Source: a virus
Virus record (IMG/VR): IMGVR_UViG_3300037882_002808
Span: 1-48,519 of that record
DNA: 48,519 bases
Strand: one strand, 5' to 3'
In this document: positions 2,482 to 44,065 of the stretch, piece by piece
Numbering within the stretch: the first letter of the stretch is position 1
How the letters are laid out: the number at the start of each line of letters is the position of its first letter
Program-made: the position numbers and the translations under genes
The notes under the pieces: model-generated
What the model saw: the letters and a program-made list of their open reading frames with translations, nothing else
Databases searched by the model: none
Told to the model about the DNA's origin: nothing

Positions 2482-3992
2482 ACCTTCCCGATTCAATGAT
2501 CCCTCAAGGCGTGCGTGCGGTCGCAGTGCCAAGGAGGATCAACCCATTTCAACTCCAGCTTCCCAAGGCGTATGCGCCCTGGCAGCACGATTTGATGACT
2601 TCAAAATGTCGCTTGCAACTTTTCGTCCTAGGCACAAAGTGCGGGAAAACCCTGGGCGGCTCGGTTCGCATGGCTGCCATGTCAATGCTGTGTCCCGCCG
2701 ACCAGCACGGGCTCTTTCGGATCATCGCGCCCACCTATGCACTCAGTTCGATTACGTTTCGTTATATGGAACGGATCTTTGCCGACCGACTTAAGCGCCC
2801 CGAAGGCTGGTCCGACTCCGACTACTCGAGAGCCGCCGCCACTTACGACGCCATGAAGCCAGAGAAGTCCACGGCCAAGCTTTGGATGCGGTGGCGGCAT
2901 AACAACGCTCTTGTTAAGTGCATCCACGCCCAAGACCCCGAGACAACGATCGAAGGCGAGCGGGTCCATGGGGCCTTGCTAGATGAAGCCTCTAAAATGC
3001 CCGAGCAGGTCTATGCCTCGCACACCTCGACAACTACGCAAACCAACGGATGGACTGCGATCACAACCACTCCAAGGGGCAAGAACTGGGTCTATAAACT
3101 TTACAAAAACATCGAAGACCACATGCGGTGGTGCGAAAGAAACGAACGTCCTTATGAGATGTTCTGCGCAACAGCAAAGACCATCGACAGCCCTTTTGTT
3201 ACCCAAGCCGTGGTTGAGCAAGCAAGAAGAACCTTGCCCGCAAGGATGTTCAAACAGCTTTACGAAGCCGAATTTGTAGATGATGGAGATGTATTTTCGG
3301 GCTTCCGAACACTCTGCGAGGGTGTCTACTTCGACGAGGCCGACCGAGAATTACACGTTCCCTTTGACGCTAACCAAATGGAAGTGGTGATCGGCGCTGA
3401 CTGGGCTAGGACGCACGACTACACGGTGTTCACAGCTTGGGATATTAACACTCGCCCCGCTCGCGTGGTTGGGTGGATGCGCTTTAATGGCCAGAATTAC
3501 CGCACCATGATCCGTCAAATCTTTGAGTTTGGGAAAAAATTCAAAGACGTTGTGCAGGTCGTCCACGACAAGACAGGGATTGGGGACGTGATCGACGAGC
3601 TCATGAGTCAACTCCCATGGAGCGTCAAAGGCGTGGTGTTCACCAATGAGTCAAAAGCCGAAATGGTTACAAAGCTTATGGTGGCGATTCAGCACGGCAA
3701 AGTGCGCTTCCCTAACTGGGAGACTTTGATCCGCGAAATGGACGCTTTTGAGGTCGAAACGAATGAGCTTGGGCGAATGAAATTCAACGCGCCGAGCGGG
3801 CAACACGATGACGTGGTTTGCTCTCTGTTCCTTGGGTTCTCCGTGGTCGATCAGATGATCACGCAAGGAGCCTTTGAGGTGCGTTTCCTTGACGACTTGG
3901 TAAATGAACCAGCCGACTCAGACGAGGGGGGCTATGGTAGCCTTGCCAGTGACGAGGACGGCGAAGACTCAGGCGGTTTCCAATGGCTCTGA
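2478..3992 (+). CDS. terL: Terminase large subunit (packaging ATPase/nuclease)
   Basis: DNA packaging motor of 504 residues. The ATPase domain has Walker A LGTKCGKT (residues 51-58), Walker B LLDEASK with Asp169-Glu170, and a coupling motif TTTPRGKNW. The nuclease domain is RNase H-like: Asp308 in VIGADWA, Asp364/Asp370 in VVHDKTGIGD, and Asp444-Asp445 in GQHDDVV. The start is either TTG 2478, overlapping the terS stop, or ATG 2496; neither has a strong ribosome binding site. Translational coupling to terS favours 2478. An acidic tail follows the nuclease domain. Length and motif order are normal for the family. Confidence 0.95.
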   Translation: MNLPDSMIPQGVRAVAVPRRINPFQLQLPKAYAPWQHDLMTSKCRLQLFVLGTKCGKTLGGSVRMAAMSMLCPADQHGLFRIIAPTYALSSITFRYMERIFADRLKRPEGWSDSDYSRAAATYDAMKPEKSTAKLWMRWRHNNALVKCIHAQDPETTIEGERVHGALLDEASKMPEQVYASHTSTTTQTNGWTAITTTPRGKNWVYKLYKNIEDHMRWCERNERPYEMFCATAKTIDSPFVTQAVVEQARRTLPARMFKQLYEAEFVDDGDVFSGFRTLCEGVYFDEADRELHVPFDANQMEVVIGADWARTHDYTVFTAWDINTRPARVVGWMRFNGQNYRTMIRQIFEFGKKFKDVVQVVHDKTGIGDVIDELMSQLPWSVKGVVFTNESKAEMVTKLMVAIQHGKVRFPNWETLIREMDAFEVETNELGRMKFNAPSGQHDDVVCSLFLGFSVVDQMITQGAFEVRFLDDLVNEPADSDEGGYGSLASDEDGEDSGGFQWL

Positions 3993-4249
3993 CGATCAAC
4001 ATGCACCCTGATCACAAGATGAAGGTTCAGATCGGCGAGAATATCTTTCTGGAGAATGTTAGCGGCAGGCAATTGAAACTGAGAATCGAGGCGCCGGACG
4101 AATTGAGAATTCTGAGGATCAAAAAGGAGCCGGAAAGTGGCAGCAAAGCAAGCAACGCGAGCGAAGGCCCCAGCGCGGGGGCAGGACTTCAAAGTGAAGA
4201 TGCTGGACCAAAACGGGCGTTTCCTGCCCGAATCCAGCGCCGAGTTTAG
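3983..4249 (+). CDS. CsrA-like small protein
   Basis: An 88-residue ORF overlapping the terL stop by 10 bases. Its first ~50 residues follow the CsrA/RsmA pattern: short N-terminal strand, KVQIGENIFLENVSG, then LKLRIEAPDELRILR, which matches the family's 'IG..V.V.V....V.IGI.AP.....R' layout. The family's Arg at position 6 is not obvious, so RNA binding may be altered. The C-terminal 37 residues overlap the portal gene in another frame and are low complexity. CsrA proteins bind GGA motifs at ribosome binding sites and control translation. A structural-gene location suggests local or host-directed translational control, but this is inference. Confidence 0.5.
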   Translation: MALTINMHPDHKMKVQIGENIFLENVSGRQLKLRIEAPDELRILRIKKEPESGSKASNASEGPSAGAGLQSEDAGPKRAFPARIQRRV

Positions 4250-7214
4250 GACCGAGCAAAGCGCATTTGTTGACAACATGACTTTGAAGAATCTTTTCTA
4301 CACAGAGGACTGGGTTTTCATTTGTACGGACTCGATAGCGGCCCCGATCTCGCAATTGCCTTTGTATGTGAATGACATCATGAGCGACAGAGGATCGGCC
4401 AAGGGTCTGACTTATTCCCCAAACCACGCCCACCCGCTTAACAAAGTGATCGAAAGGCCAAACAAATTCCAAGACAGACATGCGTTTCTTTACAACCAAG
4501 TGGTCGATTTCTGCCAACTCGGGAATGCAGTATTTTGGTTCGCTGAACAGCTTGGGGAGATGTACCAACTAGGCGCTGAATTGGTGCAGTACGACTTTGA
4601 CCAGCAAAGAAACCCTGTTGGGATGTTCTATTACCCCATGGGCTACGAAGATGGTTTTATGAACAAAGCCATGAAAAACAATTTTCCTTTGGCCCAGCTC
4701 TGCCACACCATGCGCCCAAACCCTTCGAGCCTTTTGTGGGGACTTTCCCCTTACATCCCAGGCAAAAGGTCGACTTTGATTAACCGATACAGCTCCGAGT
4801 ACGTTCTGAGTTTCTACCAGAAAGGCGCGTCTCCTCAGTTCATTCTTGAGATGCCCGAGAACACCAACAAAAAGCAGATGCAAGACCTGCTCCGCACAAT
4901 GGAAATCAGTACAACAGGCCGCAGAAACCAACGGCGCCCAATGGTTCTGCCTCCAGGCGTCAAGGCAAACTCCCACGACTCCAAGATTGTGGATCAGAAC
5001 CTTGTCGAGCTTGTCAGAAACAACCGAGAGACAATCTTGCAGATCCTCAGAATCCCAAAGCACATTGTTTCCTTGAATGAGGCCGGTTCTCTTGGCTCAG
5101 AAGAAGCCAAAATGGCGCTCAAAGTCTTTTGGCTCATGACCCTGAATCCGATTTGTGAAATGATCGAGGGCCGTTGGACCCAGTTCTTTCGAGCTCGCGG
5201 GCTCTTGCGTCAAAATGAGTGCTTGCGGTTCGACAAGTCCAGCGTGGCGGCTCTGGAAGATGACGAGGAAAGCAAAGCAAAGCTCGCAATCTCCTTGATG
5301 CCTCTCTTCACTCCAAATGAATTGCGCTCCAAATTTTATGACGCCCCACCCATTGTGGGCGGAGACGTGATCGCGTCCCAAAACTCACAGCCTCAGCTTC
5401 CAATGTTCTACGGTGCAGCTCCCCAACCTCAGCCAACACCACAGGCCCAGGCTTTGCCCGCGCCCATTGAGGCCACCAAGGAGGTCGAGCCGCCCACGAT
5501 CGACACCACAAGCACCAAGGGCCCGGACACGCTGCCAAACGCTCTCAGCGAGTCGGCTAAGGCTGTTTTTGAGCAGACCGAGAAAGACTACAAGGATCAA
5601 GAAGAGAACCAGATCCCAGAGGTTTTTGATCTAGCTTTGGAGCTCCTCTCCAAGAGCGTGGTTAAGGCCAGCTCTCTGTTCAAAAAGTTCGCCAGCGAGA
5701 AAGCGGCAACCGTGGACAAAGAGCGATACCGAAAGGAGCTCGATAAATCCTATGAAGAGATCCACAGCCAGTACCGCAAGAAGTTCGACGACAGGCTAGA
5801 AAGCTCAATTGACGTGGGTTACCGCACGTCTCTCAGCCCTCTGTTCAACAAAGAGGACCAGGCGGCTCTGGCCGCAGCTCAAGAGGAAGGTCGGCAAGGT
5901 CGAAGGGCAATCCTTGAGGCCCGCTCGATCAAAATGTTCGACAGCATTCGCAACACGTCCACTGAGTCAGTGATGAAGATCATTGACAGAGCCTTGACGG
6001 AAAAGCTGTCAGTCCAGGACACAGCGAAGCTTTTAGTCAGCACCTTCTCTGGGCTTGCAGAGTCCAGGGCTCTGACAATTGCACGAACCGAAACCCTGAC
6101 GGCTGTTTCTTTGGGTCAAGCTGCTCTCGCTCAAGACGCAGCTAAGATGATCCCTGGGCTCAAGAAAGTTTGGATGAATGCGGGCGATCTTCGGGTTCGC
6201 GGAACAAACCCATGGGACACGGCTGATCATGTAAAACTTCAGGCTGAGGAACGCGATTTTGATAAGCCGTTCTCCAACGGCCTCATGTTCCCAAGAGACC
6301 CAAGTGGTCCAGCAAATCAAACGATCAACTGTTTTATAGGCTCAACAATCGCCCAATCGGTCAAGCTTAAGGCGTCCATTTCTCACGTCTACGAGGGTGA
6401 ATTTGTTACCCTCAAAACTATATCTGGCAGAGAGCTTACCGGAACCCAAAATCACCCAGTGATGACGCGCTTTGGATGGATGGCTTTGGGTCAATTGCAG
6501 AAAGGCGACGAATTGATCTGCGCAAGCCTGAACCTCGAAGCTCCGATTTGCCCCGATATGGAACAGATCAATGCCACTATGGAAGAGGTGCATGGTTCGC
6601 TTTCTCGTTTGGGGTCGGCTCAAAGGGTAGTAAGTGCCGGTGGCGATTTCCACGGCGATGTTACTCACGCGGATGTCGATGTTGTATGGGCCGACAGGAG
6701 CTTGCATTTGGGCGTCAAAGCCTCTTCTGACGAGCTCAGCAAAGAATTCGGCCTCGTATCTTCCGACGTATTGCCGGGTTCTGCATCTGGTCACAGCTCT
6801 TTCGGCCAACTCTCGGGCGGATCTTTGGACTCCTCTGACAGCTCCGTGCGCTCTGGAGATCTGCCGAGATCTTTGGTTGGCACTCATTCGGGCCCACTTG
6901 ACTCTTTCAGCCTCAGATCGACCCCGGATAGTAACTCCGGCCTCGACAAGTCTTCTGCGAATCGTTGGCCTAGAGATTCCCAAATCCCTGGAAAGAGCGT
7001 TCTCGCTCCTGAGTTCATTAACGTAACTATGGATCAAATTGTCGATGTTCAGAGGAATTTTGGCAGGCATAACGTCTACAATCTCCACACGGATAGTGAG
7101 CAATACCTAGCAAATGGCATAGTCGTGCACAACTGTAGATGCACACTGCTTGTGATCCCGCCAGAGGATCGCAGATCAATTAAGGTTCCAAAGAAACAAG
7201 AAGGGGATAACTGA
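4137..7214 (+). CDS. Portal protein fused to MuF-type head morphogenesis domain, interrupted by an intein
   Basis: A 1025-residue precursor. After removal of the 268-residue intein, the product would be 757 residues. Residues about 30-420 resemble a phage portal (dodecameric DNA gate). A Pro/Ala/Gln-rich linker follows at about 420-460. Residues about 480-731 plus the last 26 form an SPP1 gp7/Mu gpF head morphogenesis domain, with TIARTET and the terminal CRCTLL motif. The intein sits exactly in that motif, between Asn and CRC. GTG 4137 has AAGGAG seven bases upstream and is the best start, although it overlaps the CsrA-like ORF by 113 bases. It overlaps the protease gene by one base (TGATG). 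Portal-MuF fusions are known in some phages; an unspliced product would probably have a disrupted C-terminal motif. Confidence 0.9.
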   Translation: MAAKQATRAKAPARGQDFKVKMLDQNGRFLPESSAEFRTEQSAFVDNMTLKNLFYTEDWVFICTDSIAAPISQLPLYVNDIMSDRGSAKGLTYSPNHAHPLNKVIERPNKFQDRHAFLYNQVVDFCQLGNAVFWFAEQLGEMYQLGAELVQYDFDQQRNPVGMFYYPMGYEDGFMNKAMKNNFPLAQLCHTMRPNPSSLLWGLSPYIPGKRSTLINRYSSEYVLSFYQKGASPQFILEMPENTNKKQMQDLLRTMEISTTGRRNQRRPMVLPPGVKANSHDSKIVDQNLVELVRNNRETILQILRIPKHIVSLNEAGSLGSEEAKMALKVFWLMTLNPICEMIEGRWTQFFRARGLLRQNECLRFDKSSVAALEDDEESKAKLAISLMPLFTPNELRSKFYDAPPIVGGDVIASQNSQPQLPMFYGAAPQPQPTPQAQALPAPIEATKEVEPPTIDTTSTKGPDTLPNALSESAKAVFEQTEKDYKDQEENQIPEVFDLALELLSKSVVKASSLFKKFASEKAATVDKERYRKELDKSYEEIHSQYRKKFDDRLESSIDVGYRTSLSPLFNKEDQAALAAAQEEGRQGRRAILEARSIKMFDSIRNTSTESVMKIIDRALTEKLSVQDTAKLLVSTFSGLAESRALTIARTETLTAVSLGQAALAQDAAKMIPGLKKVWMNAGDLRVRGTNPWDTADHVKLQAEERDFDKPFSNGLMFPRDPSGPANQTINCFIGSTIAQSVKLKASISHVYEGEFVTLKTISGRELTGTQNHPVMTRFGWMALGQLQKGDELICASLNLEAPICPDMEQINATMEEVHGSLSRLGSAQRVVSAGGDFHGDVTHADVDVVWADRSLHLGVKASSDELSKEFGLVSSDVLPGSASGHSSFGQLSGGSLDSSDSSVRSGDLPRSLVGTHSGPLDSFSLRSTPDSNSGLDKSSANRWPRDSQIPGKSVLAPEFINVTMDQIVDVQRNFGRHNVYNLHTDSEQYLANGIVVHNCRCTLLVIPPEDRRSIKVPKKQEGDN
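6330..7133 (+). mobile_element. Intein in the MuF domain
   Basis: Precursor residues 732-999. Block A begins with Cys732 (CFIGST). Block B is TGTQNHPVMTRFGWMALGQL, carrying the TxxH motif. Blocks F and G are VYNLHTDSEQYLANGIVVHN, ending His-Asn before Cys+1. These are all residues expected for class 1 protein splicing. The middle (about residues 795-975) has no LAGLIDADG motif. It contains DFHGDVTHADVDVV and then a long Ser/Gly/Asp-rich stretch that looks unconstrained as protein. That stretch is the complement of the nuclease ORF on the other strand. The intein interrupts the highly conserved CRC motif, a typical homing site choice. Confidence 0.9.
6342..7070 (-). CDS. Putative homing endonuclease encoded antisense within the intein
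   Basis: A 242-codon minus-strand ORF that starts with MPAKIPLNIDNLIHSYVNEL and stays inside the intein. Residues about 12-45 are a helix-turn-helix of resolvase type (SRDLGISRPTIRRRLVEAG). Residues 45-110 are basic. Residues about 115-200 carry YEAEFFAELVRRGFDAQ, VGPYNIDI and IAVEIATG, the pattern of a PD-(D/E)XK/Vsr-like phage endonuclease family. Candidate active-site residues are the Glu in YEAEF, the Asp in NIDI and the Glu in AVEI. ATG 7070 gives a normal N-terminus; an upstream TTG at 7103 is possible. There is a GGAG about 12 bases before the ATG, which is weak. The ORF has the composition of a real protein, whereas the sense frame over it is low complexity. The inferred role is to spread the intein into intein-less MuF genes. 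Confidence 0.7.
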   Translation of the reverse strand: MPAKIPLNIDNLIHSYVNELRSENALSRDLGISRPTIRRRLVEAGVTIRGRSEAERVKWARMSANQRSRQISRAHGAVRGVQRSARELAERAVTRCRTRQYVGRYEAEFFAELVRRGFDAQMQAPVGPYNIDIRVSNIAVEIATGTYYPLSRPQTRKRTMHLFHSGIDLFHIGANRSFEVQACADQFVAFLQLTQSHPSKARHHWVILGSGKLSARYSFEGNKFTLVDVRNGRLKLDRLGDC

Positions 7215-8599
7215 TGGGATACAAAGTCATACAGCAAAGCAATTTGAAGTCTTACGAAGACGAGCAGGGGAACTTCTACCTGGAGGGGTGGGCTAACTAC
7301 AACCTTCCCGACCGAGTGGGCGAGCGCATGAATCCATTTTGCAATCTGGAGAAGTGGAAGAAGGTTCCAGCTTTCCTTTTTAACCACGACCAAAGCTTTC
7401 CTCTCGGTCAGGGCATTGAAGCGATCCCGAAAGAAGAGGGCCTTTGGGTCAAGCTTAAATGGACAAACTCCCAAGCCTTGCCAATGGCCAACTACTTGCG
7501 CGATTTGACCAAAGAAGGCGCAACCAAGGCCTTGAGCATTCGATACGAAGATGAAGTGTGGGTACGGGATCCTAAGTACCCAGGCGTGAAATTCGCCCAA
7601 GAGTGGTCCCTGATGGAAGTATCTTTAGTCACAATGCCTTGTCAGCCTGAGTCGGTTGCGAGCGCCACTTTCGATGTAACATCTGGCAAGGCGCTGGCTG
7701 AGGCTATCGGCAAGTGCAAATCTGTTAACCAAGCGAGGGCCGAGATTATGAAGGTGAAGGGTGCGCAAGTCGCAAAACTGATCTCTGAAAAACTTTCTGA
7801 CATGGAGAAAGTGGACAAGTTCGACAAAGAAACGCTCATGAATCAGATCTGCCAGAAGGGCGGATGTAACCGCGAGGAGCTTTCTCGGATCATGTCTGGG
7901 GACGTGACCCCTGTTACTGACAACGCTTTGGCGGCGATCGCCTCGGAGCTGTCCATTCCCAAGGAAGAATTGACCCAGGCAAATGCTGCCGACATCGAAA
8001 AGCAAAAGGGCTCTGAGTCTTCGACCAAATCGGCGGACGATGCAGGAGCGACTACGCCGCCCACGACCGAGAGCGATCCTCTTGAAAGCCAGATGCAAGA
8101 ATGCGTGCGCTCCAAAATTCCCGCCCTTATCGCCGAAGGCAAAACCCCCGAGGAAGCAGTAGCGGCGGCGATGGGAATGTGCAGCGACGAGAAAGGATGC
8201 GACCCTGACAAGTACAAGGCTTCAATGGGCGATCATTTGAAGATGGCTGTCGAGGAAGAGGAGAAGAAGAAAGCTACGGAAAGCGCCGCTCCAGCGGCCG
8301 GCTCTGTGACTGCCCCAGTCAAGCTGGAGGAGCCGCCTTCTGGGAACCAAATGCTCGAATATCTCAAACAGAGCGTCATGGTTATGTCTGCGGTCCTTCA
8401 GGAGCTCAAAGAAATTAAAGACTGGCTGGCTCAGAACATGGTTTCCAAATCCATGGACGCCCCTAAAGACCCGTTACCTCAGACTCAAGAAGGCGGCCAG
8501 AAATCTGTTCCAGCAGTAGAGAGCAAGACAACGGCAATTCTCGAGAAGCGCGTTAGGGAACTAGAAGCTCAGGTGGCTGAGGAACTAGGCCTTCCTTGA
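7214..8599 (+). CDS. Prohead protease with C-terminal scaffold-like region
   Basis: A 461-residue protein. Residues 1-155 match the HK97-type prohead serine protease (peptidase U35): His58 in FLFNHDQ, Ser108 in KALSIRY, and an acidic residue nearby in WSLMEVSLV. Residues about 195-265 contain a small helical segment (LMNQICQKGGCNREELSRIM) of unclear origin that looks like an inserted DNA-binding-type helical bundle. Residues about 288-325 contain a Cys-bounded motif, CVRSKIPALIAEGKTPEEA ending MGMC, which recurs in phage head proteins. The C-terminus is an acidic coiled coil (about 440-461). A scaffold role for the C-terminal part is inferred from position before the capsid gene and from composition. 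The ATG overlaps the portal stop. Confidence 0.85.
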   Translation: MGYKVIQQSNLKSYEDEQGNFYLEGWANYNLPDRVGERMNPFCNLEKWKKVPAFLFNHDQSFPLGQGIEAIPKEEGLWVKLKWTNSQALPMANYLRDLTKEGATKALSIRYEDEVWVRDPKYPGVKFAQEWSLMEVSLVTMPCQPESVASATFDVTSGKALAEAIGKCKSVNQARAEIMKVKGAQVAKLISEKLSDMEKVDKFDKETLMNQICQKGGCNREELSRIMSGDVTPVTDNALAAIASELSIPKEELTQANAADIEKQKGSESSTKSADDAGATTPPTTESDPLESQMQECVRSKIPALIAEGKTPEEAVAAAMGMCSDEKGCDPDKYKASMGDHLKMAVEEEEKKKATESAAPAAGSVTAPVKLEEPPSGNQMLEYLKQSVMVMSAVLQELKEIKDWLAQNMVSKSMDAPKDPLPQTQEGGQKSVPAVESKTTAILEKRVRELEAQVAEELGLP

Positions 8600-42104: not shown

Positions 42105-42517
42105 AAATCGAAACGGTTTGGCGTCTAATTCCAAGCGATCTTAATTTGAATCAGGCCGCCGTGGATTATGCGAAAGAGAAGATATTCACAGCGGTGAATC
42201 TCCTTGACGGCGCTATCCATCATGTCCCTAAATCGGATGACCAAGAGGAAATTGAACCTTGGCTGAAATCGGCGCAGAGAGTTTCTGAGATTCTTGAAAG
42301 CCAAATGAGCGCAGCGATCATAACAATATACGAGGCTATGGAGGCCAAAAATGGAACCAGGGAAACACGCGAATTTAGACGAGACGATCTATCACGCACA
42401 AAGGGCGTTGGGTTCGTCCAGTATGAAGATGGCCTATCAAAGCCCCTTGGCTCTACAGGAGTACATGACAGCTCCAAGCTTCGCTCGAAAGACAACAAAG
42501 GCGCTGAGTTTCGGTAA
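42101..42517 (+). CDS. Hypothetical protein overlapping the exonuclease gene
   Basis: A 138-residue ORF (MKIETVWRLIPSDLNLNQAA). Residues 1-83 form a convincing helical protein (WLKSAQRVSEILESQMSAAI). The final 55 residues are hydrophilic and lie over the first 167 bases of the exonuclease gene in a different frame. The start overlaps the RHH stop. Function unknown. Confidence 0.5.
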   Translation: MKIETVWRLIPSDLNLNQAAVDYAKEKIFTAVNLLDGAIHHVPKSDDQEEIEPWLKSAQRVSEILESQMSAAIITIYEAMEAKNGTRETREFRRDDLSRTKGVGFVQYEDGLSKPLGSTGVHDSSKLRSKDNKGAEFR

Positions 42518-43181
42518 AGCGTTCCATTCGTTTTTGCTTGAGCCGCACAATTTCAAAAAAACTTATGTGGCAGCGACTCAGGTCTTTGGGCACTACGGGC
42601 TTAAGGATGCGAAGGCATATTTCAAAGCTCTGGAGGCGGAGCACCCAGACAAAGAGATCTTGAAGGCCGAAGAAATGTGGACCCTCGAAAAGATGCGCGA
42701 AGCTGTGATGCGGCTTGAAGGGATCGATCGGCTTCTTTCGGATAAAATGGAAGCCGAAGTTTCTTTTTTCGCGAACGTGGAAGGCATCGAAGGCAAGGCA
42801 CGTCTGGACTTTTTGAATGATTCTGTTGAGCTCTGGGGCGACTTCAAGAGCATGGCTGAGATCAATCACCGTAGCTTGCAGAACGTGTTTTGGGATTACA
42901 AATGGCCTTTGCAGTTTGCCTGGTATCGTCGCGTTGTAAAAGAGGCGACAGGCCAAGATTTGCCACGGGTTTGTGTTCTGGCCGTTGAGAAACAAGCGCC
43001 TTTCACTGCTTGTATTGCGGTCCAAAATGAGGATATGGAAAGAGCGGGAGAGGCAATGCTGAAGATCGCTCTTGAGAACGCCAAGAAGTGCTTGGAAGAA
43101 AAGAACTACACGTCCGAATTTCCCACCATTGTTACCGTTGCGCCACCACATTGGGCATTTGTGAAAGGAGAGATCGAATGA
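42351..43181 (+). CDS. RecE/YqaJ-like PD-(D/E)XK exonuclease
   Basis: A 276-residue recombination exonuclease. The N-terminus LDETIYHAQRALGSSSMKMA and the SFGKAFHSFLLEP segment match the RecE C-terminal/PDDEXK family. The catalytic core is GIEGKARLDFLND followed by WGDFKSMAEIN, giving Asp and Asp-x-Lys. A LQFAWYRR motif follows, the Q-x(3)-Y feature of this group. It should digest double-stranded ends 5' to 3' to expose single strands. GGAGG precedes ATG 42351. It is paired with the putative annealing protein downstream. Confidence 0.85.
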   Translation: MEPGKHANLDETIYHAQRALGSSSMKMAYQSPLALQEYMTAPSFARKTTKALSFGKAFHSFLLEPHNFKKTYVAATQVFGHYGLKDAKAYFKALEAEHPDKEILKAEEMWTLEKMREAVMRLEGIDRLLSDKMEAEVSFFANVEGIEGKARLDFLNDSVELWGDFKSMAEINHRSLQNVFWDYKWPLQFAWYRRVVKEATGQDLPRVCVLAVEKQAPFTACIAVQNEDMERAGEAMLKIALENAKKCLEEKNYTSEFPTIVTVAPPHWAFVKGEIE

Positions 43182-44065
43182 ACGCGATAGCAAAGCAGCC
43201 AAACATGAATCAACTGGAGTCCATAAAACCATTGGAGCTTGAGAGCGTGCAAGGAGTCCAAGCCAACGCTTTGATGACCCGCACACTAGCAGAGCTCCAA
43301 GCTTCCGTGATGCTGTCAAAAGCCCACCCACGCAGCCTCGTCACATGCGAGCGCAAAATTCTTGAGGGAGTTGAAAGGTTCTCCCTTGCGGAGCGTGCGG
43401 AGTATTCTTTGCCAATCGGCGGGAAGCCCGTCACTGGCGCGAGCATTCACCTGATCCAACATATTGCCCGTTGTTACGGAAACATTGACTTTGGCGTCCG
43501 TCAGCTTGCTGTTGGAGAAGACGTTGAGGGCTCATTTACTGACCTCGAAGCCTATGCGTGGGACAAAGAAGATAATATTCGTGTATGCAACGCCTTTCGT
43601 GTCTACCACTTCATGCTCGTAAAGGATTACAAGAATCCCAATGGGCCCAAGGTCAAGAAGCACCTGAACGATGTCGGCGATGTTAACAGGCTCATTGGCT
43701 CCTATGCTTCGCGTCAAGTCCGTGGCGTTCTGGCTCGCGTGTTGCCAGCCGATCTGATCGATATGGCACTGGAGAAGTCTAAAGAAACATTGCGCAAGGG
43801 CGAAGGCGCAGCCCCACTGATCGACCGAGTGAAAAAGTGCGTCAACGCTTTTGCGGGCCTCGGCGTTGATCAGGCATCGCTCGAAACAGAAGCCAAGGTC
43901 AAGATCGAGTTTTGGACCGAATCAATCCTAGCTGACATGCGCGGTCGCTACACAGCCCTGAAGGATGGCGAAGCAACGCGGGAAGCTTTGTTCTCCGCCC
44001 TGGCTCCTGCAACACAAAGCAAAGCGGCTGAGGAAGTGGCCGGGAAGCTTGGGGGCGCTAAGTGA
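43178..44065 (+). CDS. Putative single-strand annealing protein (phage recombination)
   Basis: A 295-residue protein; ATG 43178 overlaps the exonuclease stop and has AAAGGAG seven bases upstream. It contains AHPRSLVTCERKILEGVERF, GGKPVTGASIHLIQHIARCY, FTDLEAYAWDKEDNIRV and LIGSYASRQVRGVLARVLPA. This pattern recurs in an uncharacterised phage family usually encoded beside RecE-like exonucleases. The operon position argues for a RecT/Bet-like annealing role. The similarity to a proven annealase is not visible, so the function is inferred from pairing. Confidence 0.6.
   Translation: MNAIAKQPNMNQLESIKPLELESVQGVQANALMTRTLAELQASVMLSKAHPRSLVTCERKILEGVERFSLAERAEYSLPIGGKPVTGASIHLIQHIARCYGNIDFGVRQLAVGEDVEGSFTDLEAYAWDKEDNIRVCNAFRVYHFMLVKDYKNPNGPKVKKHLNDVGDVNRLIGSYASRQVRGVLARVLPADLIDMALEKSKETLRKGEGAAPLIDRVKKCVNAFAGLGVDQASLETEAKVKIEFWTESILADMRGRYTALKDGEATREALFSALAPATQSKAAEEVAGKLGGAK

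Follow-up and report, generated by a model that had tools for sequence, protein, structure and literature searches.

A head gene with an intein and an opposite-strand nuclease gene

The virus record IMGVR_UViG_3300037882_002808 (48,519 nucleotides, analysed at its full length and called the window below) belongs to a phage of the HK97 type. The present work concerns one of its head genes, the intein that interrupts this gene in frame, and a nuclease gene that runs over the same DNA on the other strand. The host open reading frame (ORF), of 1025 amino acids (aa), matches the Pfam families Phage_portal (E 4.4e-37) and Intein_splicing, and in PHROG it matches both portal and head morphogenesis proteins. 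Portal and MuF are fused in this ORF, so that the intein sits in a portal-MuF fusion, and the terminase, S78 protease and capsid genes adjoin it.

The segment 6330-7133 is an intein for which splicing is predicted. It has the cysteine at position 1, the block B TxxH motif, a C-terminal HN and a nucleophile at +1, and it matches Pfam PF14890 (Intein_splicing) above the cutoff with an E-value of 1.4e-9. The block B residues T39 and H42 are invariant across 71 inteins. In the AlphaFold model of the sense intein the HINT ends have predicted local distance difference test (pLDDT) values above 90 and the middle has values of ~40, as predicted for a disordered segment; the top matches in a fold search were the Mtu RecA and Ssp DnaB inteins. 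An explanation of the insert as a ribozyme intron was discarded, since an Rfam search over 6000-7500 gave no match to an intron, group I or II core included. Neither Pfam nor PHROGs gave a sense-strand endonuclease match for the host ORF.

On the minus strand, an ORF is open for 253 codons from 7103 to 6342, and the start conserved in the family, the ATG at 7070, leaves 242 residues. The nuclease codons lie exactly opposite the sense codons, an arrangement that we refer to as codon register, and the two coding frames share 243 of the 268 intein codons, those of block B among them. When the sense protein and the codon usage of the host gene are held fixed, the chance of such an open frame is ~10^-2.8 for the window alone and ~10^-276 when summed over 84 inteins, which are related loci and not independent ones.

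Homology and predicted fold identify the antisense protein as a helix-turn-helix (HTH) part joined to a PD-(D/E)XK (Vsr/EDxHD-like) nuclease, for which DNA cleavage is predicted. Among 71 antisense members of the family, Pfam finds MTES_1575 in 38 (best E 1.9e-8), DUF559 in 8 and Vsr in one, and many members match HTH families, including HTH_7. A family profile matches the PDB entry 3hrl at 6.8e-7 and Vsr at 0.003. The AlphaFold model of the window protein (pLDDT 92.1) places helices at residues 9-17, 23-30 and 34-43 of the HTH part and has a Vsr-type PD-(D/E)XK fold with the conserved acids; its top PDB fold match is the homing endonuclease I-Bth0305I (3r3p; E 4e-3, probability 1.00), and 3hrl comes third (probability 1.00).

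A sequence-only reading of the window had anticipated much of this, having proposed complete splicing blocks (Cys1, TxxH, HN/C) and no endonuclease motif on the sense strand, together with a 242-residue HTH and PD-(D/E)XK/Vsr-like nuclease encoded at 7070-6342. The matches and models above bear out each of these proposals, and the low-complexity Ser/Gly/Asp middle that it had described is the complement of the nuclease gene. It also placed the nuclease over block B, as found here, but its placement of the nuclease start just before block F has to be corrected, since the start lies inside that block. Of the outcomes that it had named as refuting (no nuclease or HTH homologues, stops in the frame of relatives, codon conservation confined to the sense frame), none was observed. 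The coordinates of all features are collected in Table 1.

Table 1. Features of the intein locus in the window (a slash in a motif marks the splice junction)
Feature	Position	Strand	Basis
Host ORF encoding portal and MuF head-morphogenesis protein as a fusion, interrupted in frame by the intein	4137..7214	+	Pfam, PHROG
Intein, 268 aa, inserted at MuF motif ..TIN/CRC; splicing predicted	6330..7133	+	Cys1, TxxH, HN/C; Pfam
Block A, Cys1	6330..6332	+	Invariant in A6 alignment
Block B, TQNH (T39..H42); C-terminal part of the antisense nuclease encoded opposite	6444..6455	+	T39, H42 invariant
Block G His-Asn and Cys+1 splice junction (HN/C)	7128..7136	+	Conserved in 84 inteins
Place of the family antisense -10 element in block G; window GACTAT, 3/6, no strong promoter	7119..7124	-	Aligned relatives
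Shine-Dalgarno-like GGAG of the nuclease gene, inside block F	7083..7086	-	Family form GGAGGTTRTARAC, then ATG
Nuclease gene in antisense orientation, 242 aa, ATG start at 7070, stop 6342-6344	6342..7070	-	ORF, family-conserved start; AlphaFold
N-terminal HTH part, residues 1-60	6891..7070	-	HTH_58, HTH_7, HTH_23 in relatives; predicted helices
PD-(D/E)XK / Vsr-like nuclease domain, ~residues 102-200	6471..6767	-	MTES_1575, DUF559, Vsr; 3hrl; 3r3p
Conserved acidic residue E106	6753..6755	-	71/71 members
Conserved acidic residue D132 in YNxD	6675..6677	-	71/71 members
Conserved acidic residue E141 in AVE	6648..6650	-	70/71 members

Relatives, empty sites and free-standing copies

The antisense nuclease within an intein is a large family and not a single locus. 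A scan of IMG/VR yielded at least 550 relatives, and a scan of GTDB added 20 further ones from many bacterial phyla. The antisense frame matches 126 phage records, with E-values down to 6e-33, and the best of these matches that were examined sit opposite head-morphogenesis genes; the sense intein matches 123 records, with scores below those of the antisense frame. Relatives keep the antisense frame open: the frame opposite the match in codon register is uninterrupted in 126 of the 128 loci checked (103 of 103 in a first batch that includes near-duplicates, and 23 of 25 in a second). Cys1 and the terminal Asn are in place in 84 of 87 distinct aligned loci. Most insertions lie at the MuF motif PN/CRC. 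A second MuF site is occupied in L021 and in Mycobacterium phage Sejanus (L114), and in L049 (160-4434, minus strand) a family intein lies outside MuF, in a protein with uracil-DNA-glycosylase and DNA polymerase A parts. Broad family alignments yielded no usable search pattern. A plasmid match was seen in Candidatus Promineifilum.

Intein-less MuF genes, which the sequence-only reading had suggested looking for in related phages, are present in Ivi and Schulenburg. In comparison with phage Snoke, exactly 816 bases (272 codons) are absent from Ivi at the intein site, a precise empty site that belongs to the relatives Snoke and Ivi and not to the window's own species. Schulenburg and Snoke are ~100% identical from -450 to -12, after which identity drops to.50 in the last 12 bases before the site and.62 in the first 21 beyond it and then returns to.95; this dip is as expected from co-conversion, and we call the flanks co-conversion-like. 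Among E. coli and Salmonella phages, the inteins have diverged far less than the genes that host them, and the much lower divergence of intein than of extein among Guernseyvirinae (L012, L107-L112) suggests that the intein recently passed between phages of these two hosts. Together, the empty sites, the co-conversion-like flanks and the discordant divergence indicate mobility, from which we infer homing. As a separate observation, MuF in Schulenburg is closely followed by a gene for an HNH endonuclease (L106, 1464-2033), possibly a competing homing element.

The nuclease is also found without an intein. Acinetobacter phage BUCT629 (L113) encodes a homologue that shares 35.5% identity with the Vibrio antisense protein; its gene (2501-3394) is convergent with and abuts an intact intein-less MuF gene, and the opposite codon register holds 12 stops. 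In a Thermoleophilia metagenome-assembled genome (L121), the nuclease gene (2501-3193) is convergent to an intact MuF gene with the motif HPQCRC, and the opposite register holds 2 stops. In both cases the ends of the nuclease and MuF genes abut or overlap by ~10 bases. These free-standing copies show that the nuclease gene is an independent gene, and that the opposite frame is not kept open when there is no intein. The two copies do not group in a quick tree and, because they fall apart there, no ancestral state is claimed.

The presence of free-standing copies beside intein-less MuF genes, and of an HNH gene in the same neighbourhood in Schulenburg, would also fit a real nuclease that serves another purpose, such as the exclusion of competing phages at mixed infection or self-regulation through the HTH, the intein being a safe harbour for the gene. 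We consider this unlikely as an account of the family, since the precise empty sites, the flanks and the low divergence of the inteins relative to their host genes point to homing. The two roles are mutually compatible.

Selection on the two strands and signals within the splicing motifs

The strand on which selection acts was assessed from codon-position variation in independent pairs, where sense position 1 is antisense position 3. In the exteins, variation at sense positions 1, 2 and 3 is.413,.370 and.603, with the third position most variable, whereas in the intein middle it is.474,.283 and.373, with the first most variable. Variation at position 1 exceeds that at position 3 in the intein middle of 36 of 37 pairs when the antisense proteins are aligned, and of 32 of 37 when the sense proteins are. 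In the first 70 intein codons the wobble is reversed (position 3 above position 1), and both frames are constrained there. The close pair Snoke and S55, within the Jerseyvirus/Kagunavirus comparison, differs at 31, 17 and 80 first, second and third positions in 150 extein codons and at 23, 2 and 3 in 162 codons of the intein middle, where identity is.98 for the antisense protein and.85 for the sense protein. By this computation, the antisense frame is under purifying selection in close pairs, and the sequence of the intein middle is mostly dictated by the antisense strand.

The codons TTA and CTA (Leu) and TCA (Ser), which read as stops on the opposite strand, account for none of the 6,903 Leu and Ser codons in the two frames (3,791 sense and 3,112 antisense), against ~12% in the exteins. 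Codon resampling gave an antisense identity of.490 where.233 is expected with the sense protein fixed, and in the reverse test only.347 against.259. The middle of the intein is thus conserved more strongly in the antisense frame.

These results bear on whether the antisense ORF might be an artefact, a codon-register echo of a conserved sense protein that is open by chance. Codon register is where such echoes are strongest, and some sense residues of the middle (HGD, L125) are near-invariant as well. However, the wobble falls at the antisense third position, the gain in antisense identity over the sense-fixed expectation far exceeds the reverse, searches with the antisense frame alone retrieve known nuclease and HTH families, and the free-standing copies have stops opposite them. 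We reject the echo on the grounds of codon resampling and wobble, and give it practically no weight. A conventional intein with a decayed in-frame endonuclease domain, and a later, coincidental antisense ORF, would suit the predicted disorder of the middle and a size that is large for a mini-intein, but it is barely credible in view of an antisense frame that has been conserved across many bacterial phyla and, in close pairs, evolves under purifying selection, and of a sense strand that has no endonuclease match in Pfam or PHROGs.

The C-terminal end of the intein appears to hold expression signals of the nuclease gene. In most members the antisense start lies 20 codons from the intein C-terminus and is preceded by GGAGGTTRTARAC, the DNA that encodes block F on the sense strand; there are 24 occurrences of GGAGG, where 6.8 would be expected for a fixed sense protein. 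On the antisense strand of block G, TATAAT is present in 22 of 84 members (1.7 expected), and 18 of the 19 copies of the extended -10 sequence TGnTATAAT over the 84 loci lie at one block G position. The rare Ile codon ATA accounts for 31 of 51 Ile at position -4, compared to 18% in exteins (Fisher p 2e-11, a value that overstates independence as the loci are related). This suggests that block F doubles as Shine-Dalgarno sequence and start codon, and block G, in many members, as an antisense extended -10 element, a promoter that became visible only on aligning relatives.

Elsewhere in the window, ORFs at 42351-43181 (plus strand) and 42453-43331 (minus strand) form another long opposite-strand overlap that may be due to chance; the minus-strand ORF has no Pfam match.

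Proposed mechanism and relation to known systems

We read the locus as a mobile intein with a homing endonuclease gene overprinted on its own opposite strand in exact codon register, and put the probability of this at roughly 0.87. Translation of the sense strand would give a portal-MuF precursor in which the HINT ends fold and the intein splices itself out, its middle acting as a disordered linker. Antisense transcription, in many relatives from the -10 element inside block G, and translation from the Shine-Dalgarno sequence and start inside block F would produce the HTH and PD-(D/E)XK nuclease. The probable target of this enzyme is the conserved CxC codons of MuF genes that lack the intein; after the cut, repair off the intein-bearing copy would insert the element with short flanks.

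Several observations weigh against this interpretation. The -10 element of the window is weak, with 3 of 6 positions, and a sigma-70 consensus promoter scan of the window stretch found none. The window nuclease scores 16.6 bits with Pfam MTES_1575, below the gathering threshold of 38.2, and is not counted as a member of that family; on its own it was too weak in Pfam and in a single-sequence PDB search, so that the family profile was needed. As regards the full E-D-x-H-D signature, it also lacks the His at column 148 that is found in 43 of 71 members. Finally, the free-standing copies in L113 and L121 show that the nuclease persists without an intein, which makes its link to homing of the intein indirect. 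For the family as a whole, with slightly less assurance, we think it likely that a large class of phage inteins over many phyla constitutes a self-contained two-strand cassette, in which blocks G and F double as the antisense promoter, ribosome-binding site and start codon of a homing endonuclease that is read back through the same codons.

The homing enzyme of an intein is usually one domain within the protein that is spliced. Similar to canonical mobile inteins, which carry a LAGLIDADG or HNH domain in frame, the element has HINT ends, Cys1, HN/C, a conserved site and empty sites in relatives; unlike in those, the endonuclease is outside the spliced polypeptide and on the other strand. I-Bth0305I is also tied to phage genes and inteins, and in fractured genes, reportedly described by Dassa and colleagues in 2009, the nuclease has an ORF of its own, placed between the two halves of a split intein. 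Here, by contrast, the intein is unbroken, the nuclease gene lies across it on the opposite strand, and the nuclease has an HTH at its N-terminus.

The ShiLan element, an out-of-frame HNH endonuclease in phage methylases, is likewise inserted in frame into a phage gene and conceals an endonuclease that is read in a different frame (PMC11855218), but the present nuclease is antisense and of the PD-(D/E)XK type, and lies in a complete intein with an embedded Shine-Dalgarno sequence. Antisense His-Cys homing endonuclease genes in nuclear group I introns also lie opposite the strand of their splicing element; there, the gene is inserted in a peripheral RNA segment and not overprinted on a second protein frame (PMC9548176). 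The announcement of phage Snoke reports an intein in the capsid morphogenesis protein and a relative without it, and mentions no endonuclease (PMC6776784); this intein is of the same family and at the same site as that of the window, with its antisense gene unannotated. We found no description of an antisense endonuclease inside an intein in the open literature searched; a prior description is possible, and a preprint from 2025 that treats actinobacteriophage inteins of 'non-canonical architecture', for instance, may bear on priority.

The arrangement is a new architecture of mobile intein, in which two functions share DNA on opposite strands, and its codon-register antisense overprinting is supported by homologues that number in the hundreds, by close pairs and by the free-standing copies as controls. 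It offers a natural system for the study of antisense dual coding, of promoters within splicing motifs and of the association between endonucleases and inteins. Inteins in MuF genes that have been annotated without an endonuclease deserve rechecking, and the family provides a large set of HTH and nuclease pairs for tests of target specificity.
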